From Tepidicella xavieri (GTDB lineage Bacteria > Pseudomonadota > Gammaproteobacteria > Burkholderiales > Burkholderiaceae_C), in assembly GCF_004363315.1 (NCBI RefSeq), contig NZ_SNYL01000002.1, positions 1 to 64,000 of the forward strand: DNA of 64,000 bases, given 5' to 3'. Below are positions 1,865 through 52,502 of this stretch, piece by piece. A program made the position numbers and the translations under genes. Each line of letters begins with the position of its first letter. Position 1 is the stretch's first letter. A model generated the notes under the pieces. The model was not told the origin of the DNA and ran no database searches. It was given only the letters and a program-made list of their open reading frames with translations.

Positions 1865-4522
1865 ATGGACCTGGCCGCTCCACCTCTGACGAGCACCCTT
1901 CGCCTTCAGTACCGCGAAGGCAAGGCGGCCATCCTGCAGCGGATCGCGCAATTGAAGGGGGGCGCCCGCGCCATCCACGCCCAACTGCGCCGGCTCAGCC
2001 GCCTGACCGACCAAACCTTGCGCGCCCTGTGGAAAGAGGCCGGGTTGCCAGCCGATTTCGCCTTGCTGGCCGTCGGCGGTTACGGGCGGGGCGAGCTGTT
2101 CCCCCATTCCGACGTGGATGTGCTCGTGCTGCTGCCCGAGGGCTGGGCGATGGACAACACCCCCGACACCCAGGCGGCGCTGGAGCGCTTCATCGGCCAG
2201 TGCTGGGACACGGGGCTGGAAATCGGCTCCAGCGTGCGCACCCTCGACGAATGCCTGGCCGAAGCGGCCGCCGACGTGACGGTGCAAACCGCTTTGCTGG
2301 AGTGCCGATGGATTGCCGGGCACCGGCTGGCGTTCGAACGTCTGGCCTGCCGCGTCCATGAGGCCATCGACCCCAAGACTTTCTGGCAGGCCAAAAAGCT
2401 GGAAATGCGTCAGCGGCACCAGAAATTCGAAAACACGCCCTATGCCCTGGAGCCCAACTGCAAAGAGTCCCCTGGGGGTTTGCGCGATTTGCAGATCATC
2501 CTGTGGATCGCCAAGGCCGCCGGACTGGGCGGCTCATGGGATGAGTTGGCCCGTCGAGGCCTGGCGACTTCGCTGGAAGTGCGGCAGCTCAAGGCGAACG
2601 AGGCATTCCTGAGCCTGGTGCGCGCCCGCCTGCACATCATCACCGGTCGCCGGGAAGACCGGCTGGTGTTCGACGTGCAAACCGCGCTGGCCGAATCGTT
2701 CGGCTACAAGGCCATCGTGGCCCCGGACACCAACGCCCGCGTCGTCAGCGCCAAAAAAGCGCGCCGGGCCAGCGAGGCGTTGATGCGCCGCTACTACTGG
2801 GCGGCCAAGGCCGTGACCCAGCTCAACCAGATCCTGCTGCTCAACATCGAAGAGCGCATTGCCAGCGACGAGCGCGGCGACCCGGTTCCCCTGCGCCCCA
2901 TCAACGAGCGCTTTCTGGAAAAAGCCGGGATGCTCGAAGTGGCCAGCGACGATTTGTACCTCCGCGAGCCGCACGCCATCCTGGAAACCTTTCTCATCTA
3001 CCAGCGCACGCTCGGGGTCAAGGGGCTGTCGGCCCGCACCTTGCGCGCGCTCTACAACGCGCGGCCCATCATGAACGCGGCGTTTCGCCGCGATCCGGTG
3101 AACCGACGGACCTTTCTCGACATCCTCCAGCAGCCCGAAGGCATCACCCACGCCTTCCGGCTGATGAACGAAACCTCGGTGCTCGGGCGCTACCTCTGGG
3201 TGTTCCGCAACACCGTCGGGCAGATGCAGCACGATCTGTTCCACGTCTATACCGTGGACCAGCACATCCTGATGGTGCTGCGCAATGTGAGGCGCTTTTT
3301 CATTCCCGAACACGCCCACGAATACCCATTCTGCGCCCGGTTGGCTGCGGGGTGGGACAAGCCGTGGCTGCTCTACGTGGCCGCCCTCTTTCACGACATC
3401 GCCAAAGGCCGTGGCGGGGACCATTCCGAGCTGGGGGCCGCGGATGTGGCCACATTCGCCCGGCAACATGGCATCGCCCGGGCCGACGCCGAACTCATCC
3501 AGTTCCTGGTGGCCGAGCACCTGACGATGAGCCGCATCGCGCAGAAGGAGGACCTGAGCGACCCCAGCGTCATCGCGGCTTTTGCCCGCCGTGTCGGCTC
3601 CGAACGGCGCCTCACCGGCCTGTACCTGCTCACCGTCGCCGACATTCGCGGCACCAGCCCCAAAGTGTGGAACGCCTGGAAAGGCAAGCTCCTGGAAGAC
3701 CTGTACCGCGCCACCGTGCGCGTGCTGGGCGGCGCGGCACCCGATCCGGGCGCCGAAATCGAAGCCCGTAAGCGCGAGGCGCTGACCACCCTGGCCCTGC
3801 ATGCCCTGCCGCACCAAGCCCACAAGCGCCTGTGGGACCAGCTGGACGTGAGCTACTTCATGCGCCACTCGGCCGACGAAATCGCCTGGCACACGCGGCA
3901 CGTCACGCGCGCCTTGTCGCACGCCAGCGGGGAAGCCCTGCCGCCCATCGTGCGGGCCAGGCGTTCGCCCGTTGGGGAAGGCTTGCAAGTCCTCGTCTAT
4001 GCGCGCGACGAGGCCGATCTGTTCGCCCGCATCTGCGGCTACTTCGACAGCGCAGGCTTCAGCATTCTGGACGCCAAAGTCCACACCACGCTGGACGGCT
4101 ATGCGCTGGATACCTTTCAGGTCATCACCAGCACCTTGCCCGATCACCACCGAGAGCTCATTGCCATGGTGGAAAACGAGTTGCCGAGCACCATCGCGGC
4201 CGGCGGCCCGCTGCCGCCGCCCAGCCGGGCCCGGGTCTCGCGCCGGGTGCGCAACTTCCCCGTCACGCCGCGGGCCGAACTGCAACCCGACGACAAGGGC
4301 CAGCACTGGCTGCTGAGCGTCTCGGCCAGCGACCGCAATGGCCTGCTCTACAGCATCGCCCGGGTGCTGGCCCGCCATCGCGTGAATCTGCAATTGGCCA
4401 AGGTGACCACCCTGGGTGAACGGGTGGAGGACACCTTCCTCATCAGCGGGCCGGGCCTGCATACCTACAAGCAGCAAGCCCAGCTGACCACCGATCTGCT
4501 CGAAGTGCTCGAATCCCCCTGA
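1865..4522 (+). CDS. glnD: Bifunctional [protein-PII] uridylyltransferase / uridylyl-removing enzyme
   Basis: Primary nitrogen sensor that uridylylates PII proteins when glutamine is low and removes the UMP when it is high. The 885-residue protein has every expected part. The nucleotidyltransferase motif GG...DVD is at residues 71-85. A PII-UTase helical domain contains the conserved [12 protein letters not shown]. The HD hydrolase motif [15 protein letters not shown] lies mid-protein. Two C-terminal ACT domains, starting near [14 protein letters not shown] and [15 protein letters not shown], sense glutamine. Length matches proteobacterial GlnD. It follows map by six bases, a common Burkholderiales arrangement. 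Confidence 0.97.
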
Positions 4523-4622
4523 GCCCCGATTCAGGGAATCCCCGCTGTCCATGCCATAGACAGGGCGGTAAGGTATGTCACCAGCAGGCGCTTCGGCCCG
4601 CTTACATCCCAAGGAGGACGGC

Positions 4623-4997
4623 ATGCAACCCCCTACCCTCTCCCTCATCGGTACCACCCCCCGCATGCGCTGGGCCTGGACGGCCGCCGGCGTGCTGCTG
4701 ATCGCTGGTTGGGTCCATCGGCCCGCCTCGGCCCAAGAGCCGGCCATCTTCCGTGGCGCAGACCTCAAGCTCGGCGAGGAACTGATCGCGCAACACCGGT
4801 GCGCCCAGTGCCATGCCGAAAAGGTGGGCGGCGACGGCAGCGCCATCTACCGTCCGCTGGGCGTGATCAACAACGCCGGCTTGCTGCGCGGCATGGTGGA
4901 GCAGTGCAATGCCACGCTGAACTTCCAGATGTTTCCGGAAGAGGTGACGGCCGTGGCCGCCGTGCTCAACCGCGACCACTACCGGTTCAAAGACTGA
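4623..4997 (+). CDS. Small periplasmic monohaem c-type cytochrome
   Basis: A 124-residue exported protein of unknown electron partner. After a positively charged start, a hydrophobic stretch (AAGVLLIAGW) and the ASA-Q site form a signal peptide. The single haem attachment site is CAQCH at residues 60-64, and M103 in NFQMFPEE is a plausible distal ligand. I chose ATG 4623 because AAGGAGG lies about six bases upstream; an earlier in-frame start lacks this. No oxidase or other redox gene is adjacent. Its stop abuts the converging ligA stop with no spacer. Confidence 0.8.
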   Translation: MQPPTLSLIGTTPRMRWAWTAAGVLLIAGWVHRPASAQEPAIFRGADLKLGEELIAQHRCAQCHAEKVGGDGSAIYRPLGVINNAGLLRGMVEQCNATLNFQMFPEEVTAVAAVLNRDHYRFKD

Positions 4998-8259
<3,262 letters not shown>

Positions 8260-42239: not shown

Positions 42240-43826
42240 TCAGGCCAAAGCCGCTTCCTCCACCGCAGGCATCGGTGTGCGGATGAGGTAGTCGAAAGCG
42301 CTCAATGCCGCTTTGGCGCCCTCGCCTGCCGCGATCACGATCTGCTTATAAGGCACCGTCGTGCAGTCTCCGGCGGCAAACACCCCTGCCACGTTCGTGT
42401 GGCCTTTGGCATCCACTTCGATTTCGCCGAAACGGCTCAAGTCCACCGTGCCTTTGAGCCATTCGGTGTTGGGCACGAGGCCAATCTGCACGAAGACGCC
42501 TTCCAGTTCGATGTGGTGCTCGCTGCCCGTGGCCCGGTCTTTGTAGCGCAAGCCATTGACCTTTTGCCCGTCACCCGTGATCTCGGTGGTCTGGGCATGG
42601 GTGATGATGGTCACGTTGGGCAGGCTCTTGAGCTTGCTGACCAGCACCGCATCGGCTTTGAGGGTGTCATTGAACTCGATGAGCGTGACATGCTGGACGA
42701 TGCCGGCCAGGTCGATGGCGGCCTCGACCCCCGAATTGCCCCCGCCGATGACCGCCGTGCGCTTGCCCTTGAACAGCGGGCCGTCACAATGCGGGCAGTA
42801 CGCCACACCGCGGTTTTTGTATTCCTGCTCGCCCGGCACATTGACGTTGCGCCAGCGCGCGCCAGTGGACAGAATCACGGCGCGGGACTGCAGCGTGCCC
42901 CCATTGGCCAGTTCCACCGTCACATAGCCGCCCTCCTCCTCGGCGGGCACCAGTCGCACGGCCTGTTGCAGGTTCATGATGTCCACGCCATAGTGCTTGA
43001 CCTGCGCCTCCAGCGCCGCCGCGAACTTCGGGCCATCGGTTTCCAACACCGAAATGTAATTCTCGATGGCCAACGTGTCATTGACCTGGCCGCCAAAACG
43101 CTCGGCCACCACGCCGGTGCGAATGCCTTTGCGCGCGGCATAGACGGCGGCTGCCGCTCCGGCCGGCCCGCCGCCGACGATCAGCACATCGAACGGGTCT
43201 TTGGCGCTGAGCTTGGCCGCCTCTTTCTCGGCGCTGCGCGTATCGAGTTTGGCGAGGATCTCCTCCACCATCATCCGGCCAGAGCCAAACACCTGGCCGT
43301 TGAGGAACACCATGGGCACCGCCATCACGTTGCGCTCGGTCACTTCCTGCTGGTACAGCGCCCCATCGATCACGACGGTCTGCACGCGGGGATTGAGCAC
43401 CGCCATGAGGCTGAGCGCCTGCACCACATCCGGGCAATTGTGGCAGCTCAAGGACATGTACACCTCGAAGCGGTAATCGCCTTCCAGGCCCCGGATCTGC
43501 TCGATCACTTCGGGCTCCACCTTGGGCGGATGGCCGCCCGTCCACAGCAGCGCCAGCACGAGCGACGTGAACTCGTGCCCCAGCGGCACGGCCGCGAAAC
43601 GCAAGCCCATGTCGCTGCCCGGACGGCGCAGGGCAAACGAGGGTTTGCGGGCGTCGTCGCCATCGGTGCGCACGGTGATCTTGTCCGACAGCGCGGCGAT
43701 GGTCTGCAGCAGTTCGAGCATCTCCCGGCTGCTGGCCGAATCATCCACGCTGGCCACCAGTTCGAACGGCTGGGTCACGCGCTCCAGATAGGTTTTGAGT
43801 TGTGCCTTGAGGGTGTCGTCAAGCAT
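42240..43826 (-). CDS. ahpF: Alkyl hydroperoxide reductase subunit F
   Basis: NADH-dependent flavoprotein that reduces AhpC. The 528-residue protein has an N-terminal double thioredoxin-fold domain with redox pair [10 protein letters not shown], then FAD and NAD domains ([18 protein letters not shown]) with a second CxxC in [12 protein letters not shown]. It is on the same strand as ahpC but separated from it by a terminator and its own promoter, with an OxyR-like motif upstream. The start ATG 43826 follows AAGGAGA. Confidence 0.97.
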
Positions 43827-43881
43827 GTATTTCTCCTTGAGTGGGGGATATCGATTGCCTGCCTCGACAGGCCACGGTCAA

Positions 43882-43935
43882 ATTATAAATTTATGCTATT
43901 GATAAGTGGATTGGATATTTCTAAACTATCGATAG
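43882..43935 (-). promoter_or_regulatory. ahpF promoter with OxyR-like ATAG motifs
   Basis: On the minus strand TATAAT (43887-43882) is a consensus -10 about 55 bases before ahpF. There is no good -35. Just upstream is ATAG-N7-ATAT (43929-43915), adjoining a CTATCGATAG palindrome (43935-43926). OxyR binds four ATAG-type elements spaced 10-11 bases apart upstream of a weak -35. The match is partial. Confidence 0.5.
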
Positions 43936-43963
43936 CCAGGATTCATGTCGCCGAGCGCGCCCA

Positions 43964-43992
43964 CAAAAAAGGGGTTGCCGAGGCAACCCCTG
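43964..43992 (-). terminator. Terminator of ahpC
   Basis: On the minus strand AGGGGTTGCC-TC-GGCAACCCCT forms a 10-pair stem followed by TTTTT, 29 bases past the ahpC stop. It isolates ahpC from ahpF. Confidence 0.88.
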
Positions 43993-44020
43993 GATGCTCA
44001 TCACTGCATGCGCAGCCGCA

Positions 44021-44584
44021 TCAGATCTTGCCCACCAGTTCCAGAGAGGGGGCAATGGTCTTGGCGCCTTCGTTCCACTTGGCCGGGCACACTTGGCCAG
44101 GGTTGGCGGCGGTGTACTGAGCGGCCTTGAGCTTGCGCAGCGTTTCCTTGACGTCGCGGGCGATCTCGTTGCTGTGGATTTCAGCGGTCTTGATCACGCC
44201 CTCGGGGTTGATCACGAACGTGCCGCGCAGGGCCAGGCCCTCTTCTTCGATGTGCACGCCAAACATGCGGGTCAGGGTGTGGGTGGGATCGCCCACCAGC
44301 GGGAACTTGGCCTTGCCCACCGCGGGGGAGGTTTCGTGCCACACCTTGTGGCTGAAGTGCGTGTCGGTGGTCACGATGTACACCTCGGCGCCCACTTTCT
44401 GGAACTCGGCGTAGTTCTCGGCGGCGTCTTCCACTTCGGTCGGGCAGTTGAAGGTGAACGCGGCAGGCATGAAGATCAGCACAGACCACTTGCCCTTGAG
44501 GGTCTGATCGGTCACTTCGACGAACTTGCCATTGTGAAAGGCTTGGGCCTTGAAAGGCTGGACCTGGGTGTTGATCAAAGACAT
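44021..44584 (-). CDS. ahpC: Alkyl hydroperoxide reductase subunit C (peroxiredoxin)
   Basis: Scavenges peroxide and organic hydroperoxides. The 187-residue typical 2-Cys peroxiredoxin has peroxidatic Cys47 in FTFNCPTEVEDA, the active-site arginine region, and the resolving cysteine in GQVCPAKWNEG. Length equals E. coli AhpC. The proline loop reads MPAAFTFNC instead of YPADFTFVC. ATG 44584 follows AAGGAAA. Divergent from bfr, with an OxyR-like site between them. Confidence 0.97.
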   Translation of the reverse strand: MSLINTQVQPFKAQAFHNGKFVEVTDQTLKGKWSVLIFMPAAFTFNCPTEVEDAAENYAEFQKVGAEVYIVTTDTHFSHKVWHETSPAVGKAKFPLVGDPTHTLTRMFGVHIEEEGLALRGTFVINPEGVIKTAEIHSNEIARDVKETLRKLKAAQYTAANPGQVCPAKWNEGAKTIAPSLELVGKI

Positions 44585-44667
44585 GACGATTTCCTTTCGG
44601 TTGAACAAAACGGGGATGACACTGCCCTAGGCGTCTATACACAGGACGCCTCATCGGAGACCCCTCA

Positions 44668-44808: not shown

Positions 44809-45285
44809 ATGAAAGGTGACGCACAGGTCATCACCCACCTCCAAGCCCAGCTCAAAAACGAACTGACCGCCATCAACCAGTACTTTGTGCACTACCGAAT
44901 GCTCAAGCACTGGGGCTTCGACAAGCTCGCCAAAAAGGAGTATGAAGAGTCTATCGGCGAGATGAAGCACGCCGATGCCCTCATGGACCGCATCTTCATG
45001 CTCGACGGCCTGCCCAACCTGCAAGACCTGGGCAAGCTTCAGGTGGGTGAAGACGTGCAGGAAATCCTGCAATGCGACCTGGCACTGGAACGCGCCGCCC
45101 AAGCCACCCTCAAAGACGGCATTGCCCACTGCGAGACGGCGCGTGACTACGTCTCGCGCGATCTGCTGGCCGGCATTCTGGAAGACACCGAAGAACACAT
45201 CGACTTCCTCGAAACCCAATTGGAGCTCATCGACAAGGTGGGCCTGCAAAACTACCAGCAAAGCATCATGGGCGACTTGAGCTGA
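44809..45285 (+). CDS. bfr: Bacterioferritin
   Basis: 24-subunit iron-storage protein with haem. The 158-residue protein aligns with E. coli Bfr without gaps. Ferroxidase ligands Glu18, Glu51, His54, Glu94 and His130 are present, and Met52 for haem. The sixth ligand, Glu127, is Thr (EDTEEH, codon ACC), with Glu128 and Glu129 beside it. Tyr25 is kept. Iron oxidation may thus differ from E. coli. Divergent from ahpC and followed by bfd. Confidence 0.93.
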   Translation: MKGDAQVITHLQAQLKNELTAINQYFVHYRMLKHWGFDKLAKKEYEESIGEMKHADALMDRIFMLDGLPNLQDLGKLQVGEDVQEILQCDLALERAAQATLKDGIAHCETARDYVSRDLLAGILEDTEEHIDFLETQLELIDKVGLQNYQQSIMGDLS

Positions 45286-45335
45286 AGCGCTGCCCACCCG
45301 CGCCCCTGTCCACGCAGGGGCTTGATTCATTTAAC

Positions 45336-45354
45336 GCGAATCATTATCATTGGC
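45336..45354 (+). promoter_or_regulatory. Fur box ahead of bfd
   Basis: GCGAATCATTATCATTGG contains two tandem Fur hexamer-like units (AATGAT AATGAT on the reverse strand). It lies about 20 bases before the bfd start codon, so Fur-Fe would block bfd when iron is plentiful. Confidence 0.75.
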
Positions 45355-45374: not shown

Positions 45375-45590
45375 ATGATCGTGTGCGTGTGCCACCGCGT
45401 CAGCGATAAAACCATCGCTCTGCGCGCCCAGCAGGGCGCCGAGTTCGATGAAATCCAGCTCGAACACGGCGTGGCCACCCAGTGTGGCCAGTGCGAATGC
45501 ATGGCTCGGCGCATTTGGGCGGAGTGCCGCTCCGCCTGCCCCGTGGCGCATCTGCGCAAAGAAATTCCCGCAGCGCCGCTGAGCGCCTGA
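45375..45590 (+). CDS. bfd: Bacterioferritin-associated ferredoxin
   Basis: A 71-residue [2Fe-2S] protein that binds bacterioferritin and delivers electrons to release stored iron. The four cluster ligands C4, C6, C37 and C40 (VCVCHRV and QCGQCE) keep the family spacing. ATG 45375 follows AGGAGCC. Repressed by Fur according to the box just upstream, so iron is mobilised from Bfr when it is scarce. Bfr itself shows no such box. Confidence 0.92.
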   Translation: MIVCVCHRVSDKTIALRAQQGAEFDEIQLEHGVATQCGQCECMARRIWAECRSACPVAHLRKEIPAAPLSA

Positions 45591-45603
45591 ACCCACAAAA
45601 TAT

Positions 45604-45622
45604 ATTGATTCTCATTTACAAT
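45604..45622 (+). promoter_or_regulatory. Fur box ahead of the TonB-dependent receptor
   Basis: ATTGATTCTCATTTACAAT resembles the Fur consensus (inverted repeat around TGATTCTCATT). It lies in the 108-base gap between bfd and the receptor gene, 77 bases before the receptor ATG. Confidence 0.7.
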
Positions 45623-45698
45623 ACCGAATTCTAGCCAGCCAGCACGGATTGCCGTGGTCAGCCAGCCAACAACTTGTCTATCTGTTTTCTGCTGACCC

Positions 45699-48026
45699 AT
45701 GAAAATCCGTGACCCGAAGCCGGGCGCCGTTGCGCCCACTGCTTGCCGCGATGCCGGCAAACCCCACTCCTCCACCCTGTCTTCATCGAGCGCTCTGTTG
45801 CCACTGGGCGCAATGCTGCTGGCCGGCTCCCTGTCGGCCATGGCCCAGACACCACCAACCGAGGCATCGCTGCCCACCGTCACCGTCAAAGAACAGGCCG
45901 AGCCCGAAGAAATCAAAGCCAAGCAAACCCTCCGGGCCACCGAGACCCGCATCGGCAAAGGCCAGCAGGCGTTGCGCGACATCCCGCAAAACGTCACGGT
46001 GATGACCGAGCGGCTGATCGACGACCGCAACCTCGACGACTTCAAAGACGTGCTGCGCGCGACCGCCGGCGTCACTTTCCTGGCCGGGGAAACCGGCGAG
46101 GAAGACGTGCGGCTGCGCGGCTTTTCGCTGGGGCAAGCAGGCGACATCTACCGCGATGGCATGCGCGAGGGGCAACTCATCACCCGCGACACGTTTGCCA
46201 CCGACCGGGTGGAAGTGCTCAAGGGGTCGGCGTCCATGCTGTTTGGCAAGGGATCGACCGGCGGCGTCGTCAACCAGGTGACCAAACAGCCCTTCCTGAT
46301 GGACCGCCACGAGGCAGAGCTGACGGTGGGCAGCGGCAACCACAAGCGCGCCCAGGTGGATCTGAACAAGCAGCTCGGCCCGAGCAGCGCGGTCCGGCTC
46401 AACGCCATGGTGCAAGACGCGGACAACCACGGCGCCAAAGACGACCGCCGTGGGCTGGCCGCCAGCTGGCGCACAGGCATTGGCGAGCGGCACGGCTTCC
46501 AGGTCGATCTTTACCACCTCAAAACCGATCAACGCCCGATCTACAACCACCCGCAGTTGCTCACGGGCGCGCCGGGCGACTTGAAGCGCACCATCGTGCC
46601 GGTGCTGGACGCCAAGAACTTTTACGGCCTGGCCAGCGACTACCTGCGCAGCGAGCAGACGGTGTTGTCGCTGTCGCACGCGCTGCGGTTCAGCGCCACC
46701 GAAGAACTCACGACCACGCTGCGCCACGGCCGCTACAAGCGCGACCTCTGGACCACGGTGGTGAGCTTTTGCCAGAACAACGCCACCTTGTGCCCGGGGC
46801 AAGTCGTCAGCCTGGACAACCCGCCCGGCCCCAACACCATCCTGAGCCGCAACAACTTCAAGGGCCGCCGCGGCATCAGCGACATCACCCAGGTGCAGAG
46901 CGACTACAGCAACCGCTTCGACCTCGGCGGCATGAAGCACCACCTCACCGCTGGTGTGGACATCACGGTCGAAAACGCCCTGCGCAACCCGAACAATGGC
47001 GGCGGCAATCTACCCGTCATTCCGGGCAATGCAAGCACTCGCCTGACCACCGTGGGCAACCCCAACGACGGCGCATCCCGCCCAGACACCCGGACATGGA
47101 GCTACAACGACTTTGACGCGGAAAGCCTGGGCCTGTATGTGCAGAACGTCGCCAGCATCACCCCCCATGTGAAGCTGGTCGGCGGCCTGCGCTTCGATCA
47201 CTTCCGCGCCAGCTACCGCGACACGGCCGGCAACAGCGGCCGCATGCGCGACAACCTGTGGAGCCCCCGCATCGGCGCCCTGTTCCAGCCGAATGAGGCG
47301 TCGTCCTACTACATCTCGTTTGGAGAGTCGTACAACATCTCCGGCGACACCTACCAATTCGCCCTGGGCAACCTGGCACCCGGCTCAGCCAACAGCCGCC
47401 TGGCCAACACCCCGCCCGAGAAGAGCCGCAATTTCGAAATCGGCGGCAAGTGGGACCTGTTCAACCAGCAAGCCACGGTGGGCGTGGCCCTGTTCCGCTC
47501 CGAAAAATACAACGAGCGCAACACCGACCCCGACAGCGCCGCCACCCAAATGCTGCTGTCAGGCAAGCGCCATGCCACGGGCCTGGAGATCAATGCCGCC
47601 GGGCGCATCACGCCGAAGTGGGAGGTGTTCTACAACCACACCTGGATCCCCAGCGCCAAGATTGACCGGTGCAATGCTGCCACTTGCAACCCGAATGGCA
47701 TGGTGCAGCGTGAAGGCGACCGCCCCGGCCTGACGCCCAAGCACAGCCTCAGCGCATGGACCACCTATCGCGTGGCGCCCCAGTGGCGCGTGGGCCTGGG
47801 GGCGACTTACCGCAGCGAACAAAACCCCGAAGGCAACCGCATCACCACAGCCCCGGCATTCACCGTGTGGGATGGCATGGTCGAGTACACGGTGGACGAG
47901 AAAACCACGGTCAAGCTCAACGTCAGCAACCTGACGGACAAGACCTATGTCGATGGGCTATACCGCGGCTTCTACACGCCGGGCGCGCCGCGCAAGGTGA
48001 TGCTGTCGCTCAAGACCGTGTTCTGA
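45699..48026 (+). CDS. TonB-dependent siderophore receptor (Fiu/PiuA-like)
   Basis: Outer-membrane gated barrel of 775 residues. A long signal region (to AMAQ, about residue 50) precedes a TonB-box-like LPTVTVKEQ, a plug domain ([19 protein letters not shown] and [19 protein letters not shown]), and a 22-strand barrel ending [11 protein letters not shown] with C-terminal Phe. Pairing with piuC suggests the Fiu/PiuA group, which takes catecholate-like monomers or xenosiderophores; the ligand is not proven. Fur-controlled. Confidence 0.9.
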
Positions 48027-48036
48027 TGCGCTGACC

Positions 48037-48723
48037 ATGTTGCTGAAACTGCCCCAGATCTTGAGCCGCGCCGAGGTACAGGCCATGCGCGAGCGCTTGG
48101 CCGACGATGGCCTGTGGCGAGACGGACGCATCAGCGCCGGCCCGCAGGCCCAAACGGTCAAGCGCAACGAGCAGGCCGCCCAGGACCACCCGACGGTCCT
48201 GGCCTTGCAGGCCGAGGTGCTGGCGGCAGTGCAGCGCAGCGCGCTGTTCTTCTCGGCGGCATTGCCGAGGCGCTACTACAACCCCTTGTTCAACCGCTAC
48301 CGGCCCGAGCATCCCACCTACGGGCCGCACATCGACGGCGCCATCCTGCATTCGAGGCGCACCCAGGAATGGGTGCGCACCGATGTGTCATGCACCCTCT
48401 TTCTGTCGGACCCTGACGAATACGACGGCGGCGAACTCACCATCCACGACACCTACGGGGTACAACGCGTCAAGCTGGCAGCCGGGGATGCGGTGCTGTA
48501 CCCCGGCACCAGCCTGCATGAAGTCACGCCCGTGACCCGGGGGGCGCGGATCGCCTCGTTCTTCTGGATCGAGAGCATGGTGCGCAGCGACGAACAACGC
48601 CGCTTGCTGTTCGAGCTGGACATGAACCTGCTGAAATTGCGCGAGCGCTTGGGCGAAACCGCCGAAACCACGGCCTTGACCGGCGTCTATCACAACCTGC
48701 TGCGCCAATGGGCCGACAGCTGA
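48037..48723 (+). CDS. piuC: PKHD-type Fe(II)/2-oxoglutarate dioxygenase, PiuC/YbiX family
   Basis: Cytosolic non-haem iron dioxygenase of 228 residues. The HxD...H iron site is [10 protein letters not shown] and [13 protein letters not shown], with the 2-oxoglutarate arginine in the latter. Found next to siderophore receptors in many proteobacteria (ybiX-fiu in E. coli), its substrate is not established. It follows the receptor by 10 bases and its TGA overlaps the ATG of the next gene by one base, so all three form an operon. Confidence 0.92.
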
Positions 48724-49796
48724 TGCATGCGCAACGCGCTTGGCCGGTGAATCTGGCCGACCACGAAACCCTGGCCCGCGCCCACCTGACGCCCGAAGCC
48801 GACGCCTATTTCAATGGCGGGGCGGCAGACGAAATCACCATGGCCGCCAACCGGCAAGCCTGGGCGGCCATCCCGCTGTGGCCGCGTGTCCTGCGGCTAC
48901 GCGCCGCGCCCTGCCTGAAAACCCCCCTGCTCGGTCGCACATGGCCCTCGCCGGTGTTGGTGGCACCGATGGCCCAGCAAGGCTGGCTGCATCCTGACGC
49001 CGAGCGCGCGACGGCGCTGGCCGCCAGCGCGCTCGGCGCGGGCATGGTGTTGAGCATGCAGGCCAACACCCCGCTAGAGCACATCGCCCAAGACGTGGCC
49101 CAGGAACCCGGCAGAGGCCCCCTCTGGTTCCAGCTCTACCACTTGGGCAACCGTGGCCACACCCTCGCTTTGGCGCAACGCGCCGCCGAAGCCGGCTACG
49201 AGGCCCTCGTCCTTACGGTGGACGCGCCCATACACGGCGTGCGCGACCGCGAGCGTCGCCATCCCGGCCATCCGCCTCGGGCATTGGCGCAACCCCACAT
49301 GCCCACACCTGCATCGGGGGCCGAGGGGCTGGACGCCCTGCTGCGCCAAGCCGCCACCTGGGAGGACGTGGTCTGGCTGCAATCACGCAGCCCGCTGCCC
49401 CTGCTGCTCAAAGGCATCCTGCATCCTGCAGACGCTCGCACCGCTTGCGAACTGGGCGTGGCGGGTGTGATCGTCTCCAACCACGGCGGCCGGGTGCTCG
49501 ACACCGCGCCCTCCACCGCCACAGCTTTGCCGCTGGTGGCCGACGCCGTGGCCGGACGCGCGGCCGTGCTCGTGGATGGCGGTCTGCGCCGCGGGACCGA
49601 CATCCTCAAAGCGCTGGCGCTGGGCGCCCATGGCGTACTCGTGGGCCGACCGGTCTTGCATGGGCTGGCCCATGCCGGCGCCCAGGGAGCGGCTCACGTG
49701 CTGCGGCTGCTACAGGATGAGCTGATGGCCGCGATGGCACTGTGCGGCCTGGCAGACATCGCCGCTATCGATCGGGCGTGCTTGCAGCCTCAATAG
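48723..49796 (+). CDS. FMN-dependent alpha-hydroxy-acid oxidase/dehydrogenase
   Basis: A 357-residue TIM-barrel flavoenzyme of the lactate/glycolate oxidase family. It shows the substrate tyrosine region (ADAYFNGGAADEITM), FMN-binding VLVAPMAQQGWLH and VLTVDAPIHGVRDRERR, the lysine LLLKGILHPADA, the catalytic His-Arg in VIVSNHGGRVLDT, and the phosphate loop LVDGGLRRGTDILKALALGA. It overlaps piuC (TGATG) and ends before the next Fur box. A hydroxy-acid oxidase in a Fur operon is unusual. The electron acceptor and substrate are unknown. Confidence 0.85.
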   Translation: MHAQRAWPVNLADHETLARAHLTPEADAYFNGGAADEITMAANRQAWAAIPLWPRVLRLRAAPCLKTPLLGRTWPSPVLVAPMAQQGWLHPDAERATALAASALGAGMVLSMQANTPLEHIAQDVAQEPGRGPLWFQLYHLGNRGHTLALAQRAAEAGYEALVLTVDAPIHGVRDRERRHPGHPPRALAQPHMPTPASGAEGLDALLRQAATWEDVVWLQSRSPLPLLLKGILHPADARTACELGVAGVIVSNHGGRVLDTAPSTATALPLVADAVAGRAAVLVDGGLRRGTDILKALALGAHGVLVGRPVLHGLAHAGAQGAAHVLRLLQDELMAAMALCGLADIAAIDRACLQPQ

Positions 49797-49814: not shown

Positions 49815-49840
49815 AAATACGAGTCATTCTCGTTTATAAT
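49815..49840 (+). promoter_or_regulatory. Fur-controlled promoter of the tonB operon
   Basis: AAATACGAGTCATTCTCGTT is a Fur-like inverted repeat (ACGAG/CTCGT) at 49815-49834. It overlaps TATAAT at 49835-49840, an exact -10. TTATAA at 49811-49816 may serve as a weak -35. Fur binding would cover the polymerase site directly. Confidence 0.75.
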
Positions 49841-49867: not shown

Positions 49868-49936
49868 ATGTTGTCCGGTCTTCTGCTCTCTCTGTGCCTC
49901 GTCGTCGTGCTGGGGTGGTGGGTGCTGAAGCCATGA
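49868..49936 (+). CDS. 22-residue hydrophobic micro-ORF upstream of tonB
   Basis: ATG 49868 to TGA 49936 encodes a peptide of 22 residues (MLSGLLLSLCLVVVLGWWVL, then KP), a single membrane helix ended by a lysine. Its stop overlaps the tonB ATG by four bases (ATGA), the arrangement of translational coupling. It sits 28 bases after the -10. It could be a small membrane subunit or a leader that sets tonB translation. No homologue is recognised and ribosome binding is weak. Confidence 0.45.
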   Translation: MLSGLLLSLCLVVVLGWWVLKP

Positions 49937-50688
49937 GTTCCACCGTTCACGACTCCATGCCCGTTTCCACCGCGCGCCTGCTCACCGTCGTGACGGGCGT
50001 GCTCGCCGCCCATGCAGGCGCGCTCTGGCTCGTGCAAACCGGTTGGCAGCAGCGTCCACAAGAGATCATCGTGGCCGCGGAGATCCTGGGTGAATGGGTA
50101 AGGCCAGAGCCTGCCGTGCCGACGGCAGCGCCTCCCGTGGCGCCACCACCGCCAGCGCCACAACCACCGGCACCCCGCCCCAACCCGCCGCGCCCAGCAC
50201 CGACGCCTGTGCCCAGCCCTGCTCCTGCGCCCGTGGCAGCTGCCGATCCCACGCCGGCGCCAGACATGGCGGTCGAATCCACCCCTTCGGCCTCACCCGC
50301 GCCCAGCAACGCGGCCTCAGCCACGGCCACCACCAGTGCCACTTCGAGTGCCACCTTGGTCAGCGCCAGCGCCCCGTCGGGACCGCCCGGCCCACCGGCG
50401 CCGCGCATCGAACTGCCGTCTGCTTCGGCCCGTTATCTGAACAATCCACCGCCGCGCTATCCCCCGCTGAGCCGTCGGCTTGGCGAACAGGGCAAAGTGG
50501 TTCTTCGGGTGCGCATCGAGGTGGATGGCACCGCCTCGCAGGCCGAAATCCACACATCCAGCGGCTATGCACGGCTGGATCAGACCGCCCTGCAAACCGT
50601 GCTGACCTGGCGTTATGTGCCCGGCACCCGCAACGGCGTGCCCGAGGCCATGTGGTTCAACATTCCCATCAATTTCGTACTGGAGTAA
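49933..50688 (+). CDS. tonB: Energy-transducing protein TonB
   Basis: Couples the inner-membrane proton gradient to outer-membrane receptors. The 251-residue protein has one N-terminal anchor (LLTVVTGVLAAHAGALWLV), a periplasmic proline-rich spacer (repeated PAPxP, about residues 55-110), and a C-terminal domain with PRYPPLSRRLGEQGKVVLRV and the YxP-type motif ending RNGVPEAMWFNIPINFVLE. ATG 49933 is chosen for its overlap with the micro-ORF; an earlier in-frame start lacks the anchor context. Six bases before exbB. Confidence 0.93.
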   Translation: MSSTVHDSMPVSTARLLTVVTGVLAAHAGALWLVQTGWQQRPQEIIVAAEILGEWVRPEPAVPTAAPPVAPPPPAPQPPAPRPNPPRPAPTPVPSPAPAPVAAADPTPAPDMAVESTPSASPAPSNAASATATTSATSSATLVSASAPSGPPGPPAPRIELPSASARYLNNPPPRYPPLSRRLGEQGKVVLRVRIEVDGTASQAEIHTSSGYARLDQTALQTVLTWRYVPGTRNGVPEAMWFNIPINFVLE

Positions 50689-50694
50689 TTGGCA

Positions 50695-51429
50695 ATGGAC
50701 ATGCAATTCGGCCTCGGCCACGTGTGGCAACAAGGCGACTGGGTCATTCGTTCGGTGGCTATCATTCTGTTGGCCATGTCGGTGGCCAGTTGGGTGGTGA
50801 TCGTGCTCAAGGCGCTGGCCCTTCGCCATCACCGCGCCCAGGCCCGGGCCGTGGACCAGTTCTGGCACAGCCAAGACTTCGCCGAAGGTCTTCACAAGCT
50901 CGAACCGGCCGAAAACAACCCCTTCTATCTGCTCGCCCTGCAAGGGCGCGAGGCCACCACCCACATCCTGCATCTGGATGGCGAGCCCAAGCGGCAGCTG
51001 CACGACAACCTCGACGTGAGCGAGTGGGTCACGCGGGCGCTGCGCAACACCATCGACGACGTGACGGCCCGGCTCCAATCGGGCCTGGTGATTCTGGCCT
51101 CGGTGGGCTCGACCGCCCCTTTCATCGGCCTGTTTGGCACGGTCTGGGGGATTTACCACGCGCTCATGGGGATAGGCGCGGCCGGTGCGGCGACCATCGA
51201 CCGGGTGGCCGGCCCCATCGGAGAGGCGCTCATCATGACGGCTCTGGGCCTGCTCGTCGCCATTCCGGCCGTGCTGGGTTACAACGCCCTGGTGCGCGGC
51301 AACAAAGCCCTGTTGCACAAGCTCAACCGCTTTGCCCACGACCTGCACGCCTACTTCGTGACCGGCGCCCGAGTGGGTGAAGAAAGCGCGCAGACATCGG
51401 CCAAAGTACGCCCGATCAAACAGGCTTGA
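50695..51429 (+). CDS. exbB: ExbB proton-channel subunit
   Basis: MotA/TolQ/ExbB-family inner-membrane protein of 244 residues with three helices. LGLLVAIPAVLGYNALVRGN and TAPFIGLFGTVWGIYHAL are the diagnostic channel helices. It energises TonB with ExbD. ATG 50695 is preferred over an in-frame TTG at 50689. The exbD start is 11 bases after its stop. Confidence 0.96.
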   Translation: MDMQFGLGHVWQQGDWVIRSVAIILLAMSVASWVVIVLKALALRHHRAQARAVDQFWHSQDFAEGLHKLEPAENNPFYLLALQGREATTHILHLDGEPKRQLHDNLDVSEWVTRALRNTIDDVTARLQSGLVILASVGSTAPFIGLFGTVWGIYHALMGIGAAGAATIDRVAGPIGEALIMTALGLLVAIPAVLGYNALVRGNKALLHKLNRFAHDLHAYFVTGARVGEESAQTSAKVRPIKQA

Positions 51430-51440
51430 GGATCACGGAC

Positions 51441-51848
51441 ATGGCGTTTTCCGATCCGCAAACCGACGACAACGACGTGATGAGCGAGATCAACATGATC
51501 CCGCTGATCGATGTGATGCTGGTGCTGCTCATCGTGTTCATGATCACCGTGCCAGTGATGACGCACTCGGTCAATGTGAATCTGCCACAGGCAGCCACCG
51601 AGCCCAACCGCGACAAACCCGAAACCATCCGCCTGACCGTGGATGCCGACGGCCAGTTCCACTGGAATCAGAGCCCGCTGACATTCAGCGAGCTCGAAGC
51701 CCACCTGGCCCAAGCCGCGCTCATGGATCCGCAGCCCGACCTGCACATCCGCGGCGACAAAGCCGTGCGGTACGAGCATGTGGCCAGCGCCATGGCCGCC
51801 GCACAGCGCGCTGGCATTCGCAAACTGGCCTTCGTGACGGAACCATGA
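51441..51848 (+). CDS. exbD: ExbD proton-channel subunit
   Basis: A 135-residue protein with one N-terminal helix holding the proton-carrying aspartate (INMIPLIDVMLVLLIVFMIT) and a periplasmic domain. The motif MSEINMIPLIDVML is canonical. The ATG start at 51441 is used; an in-frame TTG at 51426 is less likely. Its TGA overlaps the hemP start (ATGATG). Confidence 0.96.
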   Translation: MAFSDPQTDDNDVMSEINMIPLIDVMLVLLIVFMITVPVMTHSVNVNLPQAATEPNRDKPETIRLTVDADGQFHWNQSPLTFSELEAHLAQAALMDPQPDLHIRGDKAVRYEHVASAMAAAQRAGIRKLAFVTEP

Positions 51849-52057
51849 TGGAAGCACGCCTGCCCCTGAGCCCGGCCACGCGAGATGCCGAGCTTGGCGA
51901 ATGCCCGCCACGCCCAAGCCTGTGCCATCATGAAGCCGCAGCGCCGGTGGACAGCCGCGCTTTGCTCAACGGCCGGCGCGAGTTGCTCATCCACCACCAA
52001 GGCCAGCTCTACCGGCTACAGGCCACCCGCCAGGGCAAGCTCATCCTCACCAAATGA
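51845..52057 (+). CDS. hemP: HemP-family haemin uptake protein
   Basis: A 70-residue protein whose C-terminal half is the HemP signature: VDSRALLNGRRELLIHHQ then LYRLQATRQGKLILTK. The N-terminal 30 residues are unconserved. In Burkholderia, HemP is reported to act as a regulator of haem-uptake genes; in others it flanks haem receptors. Here it is coupled to exbD, so it is made with the TonB motor under Fur control. No haem receptor gene is in the window. Confidence 0.9.
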   Translation: MMEARLPLSPATRDAELGECPPRPSLCHHEAAAPVDSRALLNGRRELLIHHQGQLYRLQATRQGKLILTK

Positions 52058-52094: not shown

Positions 52095-52502
52095 TCAGAG
52101 ACCCAGCGCCGCGATGCCCGCTTTGGCGATCTGGGCGTCCTCGTTGGACTTCACGCCGCTGACCCCCACCGCCCCCAGGCAATGGCCATCTTTGATGATC
52201 GGCACGCCGCCTTCGAGCATGCCGGCAATCCCGGGGGCGCTGAGAAACGACGTCCGGCCCTGATTGATCACGTCCTCGTAAATCTTGCTTTCGCGCCGAC
52301 CCAGGGCGGCGGTGTGGGCCTTGGCCGGCGCAATGTGGGCCGAGACGGCTGGCGCCCCATCGAGCCGCTGCAGCCACAGCAGATGACCGCCTTCGTCCAC
52401 AATGGCGATGGTGACGGCCCAATGATTTTTCAGGGCTTCGGCTTCGGCGGCGGCAGCGATGAGCTTGACATCGGCAAGCTCCAGTGCGGGTTTGGATTTC
52501 AT
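52095..52502 (-). CDS. GlcG/HbpS-family protein
   Basis: A 135-residue single-domain protein. It shows AIVDEGGHLLWLQRLDGAP, SKIYEDVINQGRTSFLSAPG and GGVPIIKDGHCLGAVGVSGV, the three conserved segments of the GlcG/HbpS (DUF336) fold. Some relatives bind haem, others sit with glycolate or cobalamin genes. It converges on hemP with 37 bases between. Adjacent hemP makes a haem role possible, not proven. Confidence 0.82.
   Translation of the reverse strand: MKSKPALELADVKLIAAAAEAEALKNHWAVTIAIVDEGGHLLWLQRLDGAPAVSAHIAPAKAHTAALGRRESKIYEDVINQGRTSFLSAPGIAGMLEGGVPIIKDGHCLGAVGVSGVKSNEDAQIAKAGIAALGL

Follow-up and report, generated by a model that had tools for sequence, protein, structure and literature searches.

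A flavin-dependent α-hydroxy-acid oxidase linked to piuC in a predicted Fur-controlled iron-uptake operon of Tepidicella xavieri

We analysed a 64-kb stretch of the Tepidicella xavieri contig NZ_SNYL01000002.1 (positions 1 to 64,000; hereafter the window, whose positions are used as coordinates below). In this window, genes for a TonB-dependent siderophore receptor, for the dioxygenase PiuC and for a flavin mononucleotide (FMN)-dependent α-hydroxy-acid oxidase (HAO, encoded by hao) appear from their sequence to form a single transcription unit behind a predicted Fur box. The receptor–dioxygenase pair is known; judged by the open literature, the flavin oxidase as a third partner is new. The near-exclusive link of hao to piuC within the bacterial family suggests that an unsolved route of iron uptake has a second step. 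We tentatively favour a reading in which the trio is a Fur-repressed iron-acquisition module and the oxidase serves the receptor–PiuC pair as a dedicated accessory, with the two enzymes acting on the ligand as a hydroxylate-then-oxidise relay. The three genes are as follows.

45699 to 48026, plus strand: TonB-dependent siderophore receptor, Fiu/PiuA-like (TIGR01783, 257 bits, cut-off 223.5).
48037 to 48723, plus strand: piuC, PKHD-type Fe(II)/2-oxoglutarate dioxygenase (NF003975, 319 bits, cut-off 180).
48723 to 49796, plus strand: hao, FMN-dependent α-hydroxy-acid oxidase of a PiuC-associated clade (PF01070, 379 bits).

The receptor gene ends at 48026, leaving a 10-nt gap before piuC, whose final position, 48723, is also that of the hao ATG (a 1-nt overlap, TGATG). 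The coordinates, strand and gaps of 10 and -1 bases given in an initial annotation of the window were therefore correct.

The association between hao and piuC was assessed in samples of genomes, with neighbouring genes called by tblastn using the window proteins. The GTDB family of the window genome was sampled with 201 genomes, of which 103 have hao matches and 143 piuC matches; both genes occur in 102 genomes, piuC alone in 41, neither in 57 and hao alone in a single genome, where the match is LldD-like at 36% identity (Fisher p 6e-22 over the 201 genomes, kinship ignored). The physical linkage is also tight: 84 hao matches reach at least 50% identity, and 70 of these have piuC less than 500 bp upstream on their own strand, with a further 8 within 2.6 kb of it. 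The search for piuC together with the oxidase in other genomes that the initial annotation had proposed was thus strongly positive, contrary to the lack of co-occurrence that would have refuted its reading. Because the same receptor–piuC locus is also common without hao, it is hao that depends on piuC, as an accessory, and not the reverse. The hao copy of one genome (G015; loci L040 and L011) is interrupted by a TAA in its reading frame, which could reflect either recent decay into a pseudogene or a fault in the assembly.

The trio is found at least in genomes of Aquabacterium, Rhodoferax, Leptothrix, Zoogloea, Brachymonas, Inhella and Pusillimonas, and at least also in Methylophilus, three Pseudomonas, Acinetobacter sp. 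NIPH 2699 and Zhongshania, while in Thiothrix hao lies divergently beside the receptor–piuC pair. The gene order varies between receptor-piuC-hao, receptor-hao-piuC, hao-receptor-piuC and piuC-hao-receptor, and hao can also be convergent with piuC-receptor. Conservation of the trio in dozens of genomes rules out a chance neighbourhood, and a link between hao and piuC that is kept through rearrangement, receptor change and several bacterial orders argues for function rather than inertia. The receptor can fall to 24–30% identity at loci where piuC and hao are kept, which weakens the idea of a ligand bound to a single receptor type. The hao distances track those of piuC (partial r 0.39) more closely than those of the receptor (0.21), and about ten changes are required to explain the presence of hao on the piuC tree.

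A single clade, separate from LldD and glycolate oxidase, takes in every piuC-linked oxidase. This clade held 66 rows in a first tree, 63 of them linked to piuC, and 51 rows (46 linked) with support 86/85 in a more careful one. Of the five rows of the careful tree that are not linked to piuC, four are still in iron or haem contexts; hao lies beside bfd-tonB-exbBD at the unlinked loci L050 and L228, directly after hemP, outside the receptor–piuC locus, at L062, and in a siderophore operon at L222. At the unlinked locus L066, no iron gene was found among the open reading frames inspected. By eye and from the sequences, the nearest oxidases outside the clade adjoin genes of sugar and general metabolism. 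At L062, the end of hemP (6835–7035) is overlapped by hao (7032–8096, hao-oriented coordinates).

Fur control of the trio is predicted from a motif learned de novo, without supervision, from the regions upstream of the receptor at 66 homologous loci. The classical Fur consensus had given no match with up to three mismatches; it gave way to mismatch counting and then to the learned motif. This motif, the palindrome AATGAGAATcATTCTCATT, is a Fur box, and 49 of the 66 upstream regions score above 99% of intragenic control windows. In many of the regions that lack it, tonB-exbBD lies upstream of the receptor, which is therefore not the first gene there. Three strong boxes occur in the window, before bfd, the receptor and tonB.

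45333 to 45351: Fur box before bfd, AACGCGAATCATTATCATT, 27.1 bits with the learned motif; outside the training set.
45598 to 45616: Fur box of the trio, AAATATATTGATTCTCATT, 19.1 bits, third best in the 64 kb; its region is one of the 66 training sequences.
49816 to 49834: Fur box before tonB, AATACGAGTCATTCTCGTT, 23.2 bits; outside the training set.

The next-best site reaches 8.5 bits, and the top sites of five Markov-shuffled windows, one from each, came to 9.0–12.1 bits, so the three boxes stand well above chance. The box that the initial annotation had seen ahead of the receptor is thus present, and is better placed at 45598–45616.

The oxidase is a full-length member of the FMN_dh family, its PF01070 match covering residues 18–355. 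Residues Y29, Y139, R174, K230, H254 and R257 are conserved, and the protein retains every substrate-anchoring residue known from 4-hydroxymandelate oxidase (Hmo) and glycolate oxidase. An AlphaFold model (pLDDT, the predicted local distance difference test score, 92) matches spinach glycolate oxidase best (1gox, 39% identity); glycolate oxidase and human HAO1 lead the structural matches, followed by 4-hydroxymandelate oxidase. The fold and catalytic residues are therefore like those of plant glycolate oxidase and HAO1 (37–40% identity), from which the window protein differs in its separate clade, its genomic context and a clade-specific glutamine at the position of glycolate oxidase W108, shared by 35 of 39 main-clade members. 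LldD and L-lactate oxidase belong to the same superfamily (PF01070). The lactate models were nevertheless all missed by the window protein (NF008398, 230 bits against a cut-off of 376; NF033901, 208 against 550; TIGR02708, 192 against 645.5), and these cut-offs and the tree placement led us to reject, on sequence grounds, an ordinary LldD or lactate oxidase. Moreover, a separate LldD-like protein, about 35% identical to HAO and in a different clade, is encoded in the same genome. The genomic pattern makes lactate alone an unlikely substrate. Oxidation by this enzyme class needs an α-hydrogen, and the hydroxyl of citrate is tertiary and has none; citrate is therefore implausible and was rejected on chemistry.

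The partners of the oxidase also score as members of their families. The receptor carries a Plug domain and a TonB barrel and passes the siderophore-receptor model. Its best equivalog is Fiu (NF007349), for which its 294 bits fall below the cut-off of 686; it is thus Fiu-like and not Fiu, and its relatives in the PDB are 5fok, 5fp1, 5nec and Fiu itself (6bpm). PiuC passes its family model and has its metal- and 2-oxoglutarate-binding residues, H98, D100, H161 and R171 aligning with those of crystallised PiuC (9qn1). No open paper was found for the PiuC structures 9qn1–9qn4, 9qn0 and 9ghl. In sum, the interpretation offered by the initial annotation is upheld in part, by the predicted Fur control, the arrangement of the genes as one unit, the intact active sites of both enzymes and above all the co-occurrence; an α-hydroxy-acid group on the arriving ligand and reuse of its carbon are its hypothetical parts.

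Pairs of a TonB-dependent receptor and a PiuC-type dioxygenase are known from Caulobacter crescentus (CciT-CciO), E. coli (Fiu-YbiX) and P. aeruginosa (PiuA-PiuC), the substrate being unestablished (PMC12004947, PMC12004943). As with CciT-CciO, the two genes share an operon that is Fur-regulated there and predicted to be so here, and no siderophore biosynthesis was found in either host. The window locus differs in adding a third conserved gene, the FMN oxidase, which neither paper mentions; in a published neighbourhood analysis, PepSY and Sel1 proteins are the next commonest partners and an FMN oxidase is not among them (PMC12004943). In the open literature on PiuC with hydroxy acid oxidases, FMN or iron regulons (subscription papers lay outside the search), the oxidase as a third partner is not described. 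A comparable pairing of a non-heme iron dioxygenase with an FMN α-hydroxy-acid oxidase is that of hydroxymandelate synthase and oxidase (HmaS-Hmo) in hydroxyphenylglycine biosynthesis, in which the anchoring residues Tyr128, Arg163, His252 and Arg255 of Hmo correspond to Y139, R174, H254 and R257 of the window protein (PMC6677016). Unlike the trio, HmaS-Hmo serves a biosynthetic pathway with no tie to iron, and Hmo chains are only about 39% identical to HAO. HmaS itself is not known to be PiuC-like.

PiuC/YbiX/CciO dioxygenases stand beside Fiu/PiuA receptors across the Proteobacteria, including at the route by which the siderophore antibiotic cefiderocol enters. A partner enzyme of well-understood chemistry, kept with PiuC across several orders, narrows the range of products to be sought for PiuC, among which an α-hydroxy acid should be expected. 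HAO would also allow PiuC to be assayed in a coupled reaction with peroxide as a simple readout, making PiuC function directly testable.

In the relay that we favour, the receptor, driven by the adjacent TonB-ExbBD, would import iron in complex with a ligand that is probably catecholate-like. PiuC would hydroxylate this ligand, whole or in part, so that an α-hydroxy acid remains or is newly made, and HAO would use FMN and O2 to convert this to an α-keto acid, so destroying the chelating group. Iron release would become irreversible and/or the ligand would be opened to catabolism. We infer the identity of the ligand and the order of the steps; the analogy with HmaS-Hmo, a precedent for such a relay, is drawn from the enzyme classes and the dependence of hao on piuC. 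The α-hydroxy acid may be made by PiuC rather than being present on the arriving ligand. A more specific version, in which PiuC hydroxylates next to a carboxylate and the clade-specific HAO then makes the keto acid, would amount to a so far undescribed two-step disassembly of the imported ligand, in which iron is freed by destroying the chelator with oxygen and not by reduction or ester hydrolysis; this we regard as conceivable and on balance rather doubtful.

Several observations weigh against the relay. Neither PiuC nor HAO has an established substrate, receptor–piuC loci manage commonly without the oxidase, and the association test takes no account of kinship. In subclade g2 the oxidase has His for Y24 and lacks R164 (glycolate oxidase numbering), and in subclade g3 R164 is replaced by Ser in 8 of 10 members. 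Substrate recognition has probably shifted in both, to judge from these replacements, and loss of the substrate-carboxylate arginine in two sister subclades makes a single fixed ligand for the whole clade unlikely. The subclade with His for Tyr24 and a deletion at Arg164 comprises the hao genes of L071, L074, L076, L081, L083, L132 and L135. Finally, at locus L222, in a genome (G634) of another class of the same phylum and probably an alphaproteobacterium, a hao gene of this clade, its product 53% identical to the window protein, is flanked by a siderophore ABC transporter (Peripla_BP_2, two FecCD permeases and an ATPase) on one side and by a Fiu-like receptor on the other; piuC is absent from the 9.6-kb stretch, the rest of that genome not having been searched for it. 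This context supports a role for hao on an imported iron ligand and also shows that piuC is not always adjacent. The arrangement is at L222 positions 2481–7497 on the minus strand.

The L222 arrangement, like the occurrence of both piuC-hao and hao-piuC orders, is what might be expected if HAO acted on a ligand already bearing an α-hydroxy acid, in parallel with PiuC or before it, so that the two enzymes shared a cargo without any product–substrate order. This was the version proposed by the initial annotation. We consider it unlikely, though less so than the alternatives that follow, as family genomes with hao and without piuC are almost absent and the covariation of hao is stronger with piuC than with the receptor. 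Somewhat less probable again is that HAO is an ordinary iron-free lactate or glycolate oxidase that replaces iron-dependent enzymes and sits in the operon only for iron control. An FMN enzyme of a lactate/glycolate-oxidising superfamily, with glycolate oxidases as its closest folds and a predicted Fur box ahead of its operon, would fit such iron sparing. That role should not need piuC, however, and none of the 57 genomes lacking both genes breaks the pattern, which only the one 36% LldD-like match does; the separate LldD-like protein, the lactate scores far below their cut-offs and the glutamine at W108 also speak against it.

A different role is hinted at by loci L051, L057 and L063, where about 1 kb of genes lies between piuC and hao; these encode PepSY_2 and cytochrome b561 proteins at L063, the L057 and L063 open reading frames look alike, and the intervening genes hint at a redox partner. 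HAO might then be a source of electrons for ferric reduction, passed to cytochrome b561 or to Bfd and not to O2, and bfd does often follow hao in relatives. We think this improbable: the predicted fold best matches soluble O2-using oxidases, most loci have no cytochrome and the window genome has no PepSY_TM match. It is least probable of all that HAO feeds PiuC its co-substrate by oxidising 2-hydroxyglutarate to 2-oxoglutarate, which would account for the dependence of hao on piuC and for co-expression, but 2-oxoglutarate is an abundant central metabolite, 41 family genomes use piuC without hao and there is no direct evidence for it.

Searches of the 2.8-Mb window genome found no nonribosomal peptide synthetase (NRPS) condensation domain, IucA/IucC, FeoB, FTR1 or PepSY_TM, and the only FecCD permease found sits in a B12 locus. 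With neither an NRPS condensation domain nor IucA/IucC, an own siderophore was rejected, and a xenosiderophore or other ligand is more likely. Three TonB receptors were found, one BtuB-like, one uncharacterised and that of the trio. Because the last alone passes the siderophore-receptor model and the other uptake genes searched for were not found, the operon is probably the main route for chelated iron. CciT-CciO is reported to play a comparable role in Caulobacter, for which a siderophore has likewise not been found (PMC12004947).

The trio is flanked upstream by bfr and bfd and downstream by tonB, exbB, exbD and hemP.

44809 to 45285, plus strand: bfr, bacterioferritin/ferritin-like (PF00210, 129 bits), a neighbour conserved in relatives.
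45375 to 45590, plus strand: bfd, bacterioferritin-associated ferredoxin (PF04324, 31.1 bits, cut-off 26).
49894 to 50688, plus strand: tonB (PF03544, 78.6 bits).
50689 to 51429, plus strand: exbB (PF01618, 114 bits).
51426 to 51848, plus strand: exbD (PF02472, 115 bits).
51845 to 52057, plus strand: hemP, hemin uptake protein (PF10636, 68.8 bits).

Divergently beside bfr, at 42240–44608 on the minus strand, lie genes that resemble the peroxide-defence genes ahpF and ahpC. The ahpC-bfr-trio arrangement is seen again in relatives; given the peroxide expected from the oxidase, it may be of significance. At the other end, the iron cluster is closed by an HbpS-like gene (PF03928, haem-degrading/GlcG family; 52095–52502, minus strand), which is conserved at this place in many relatives.

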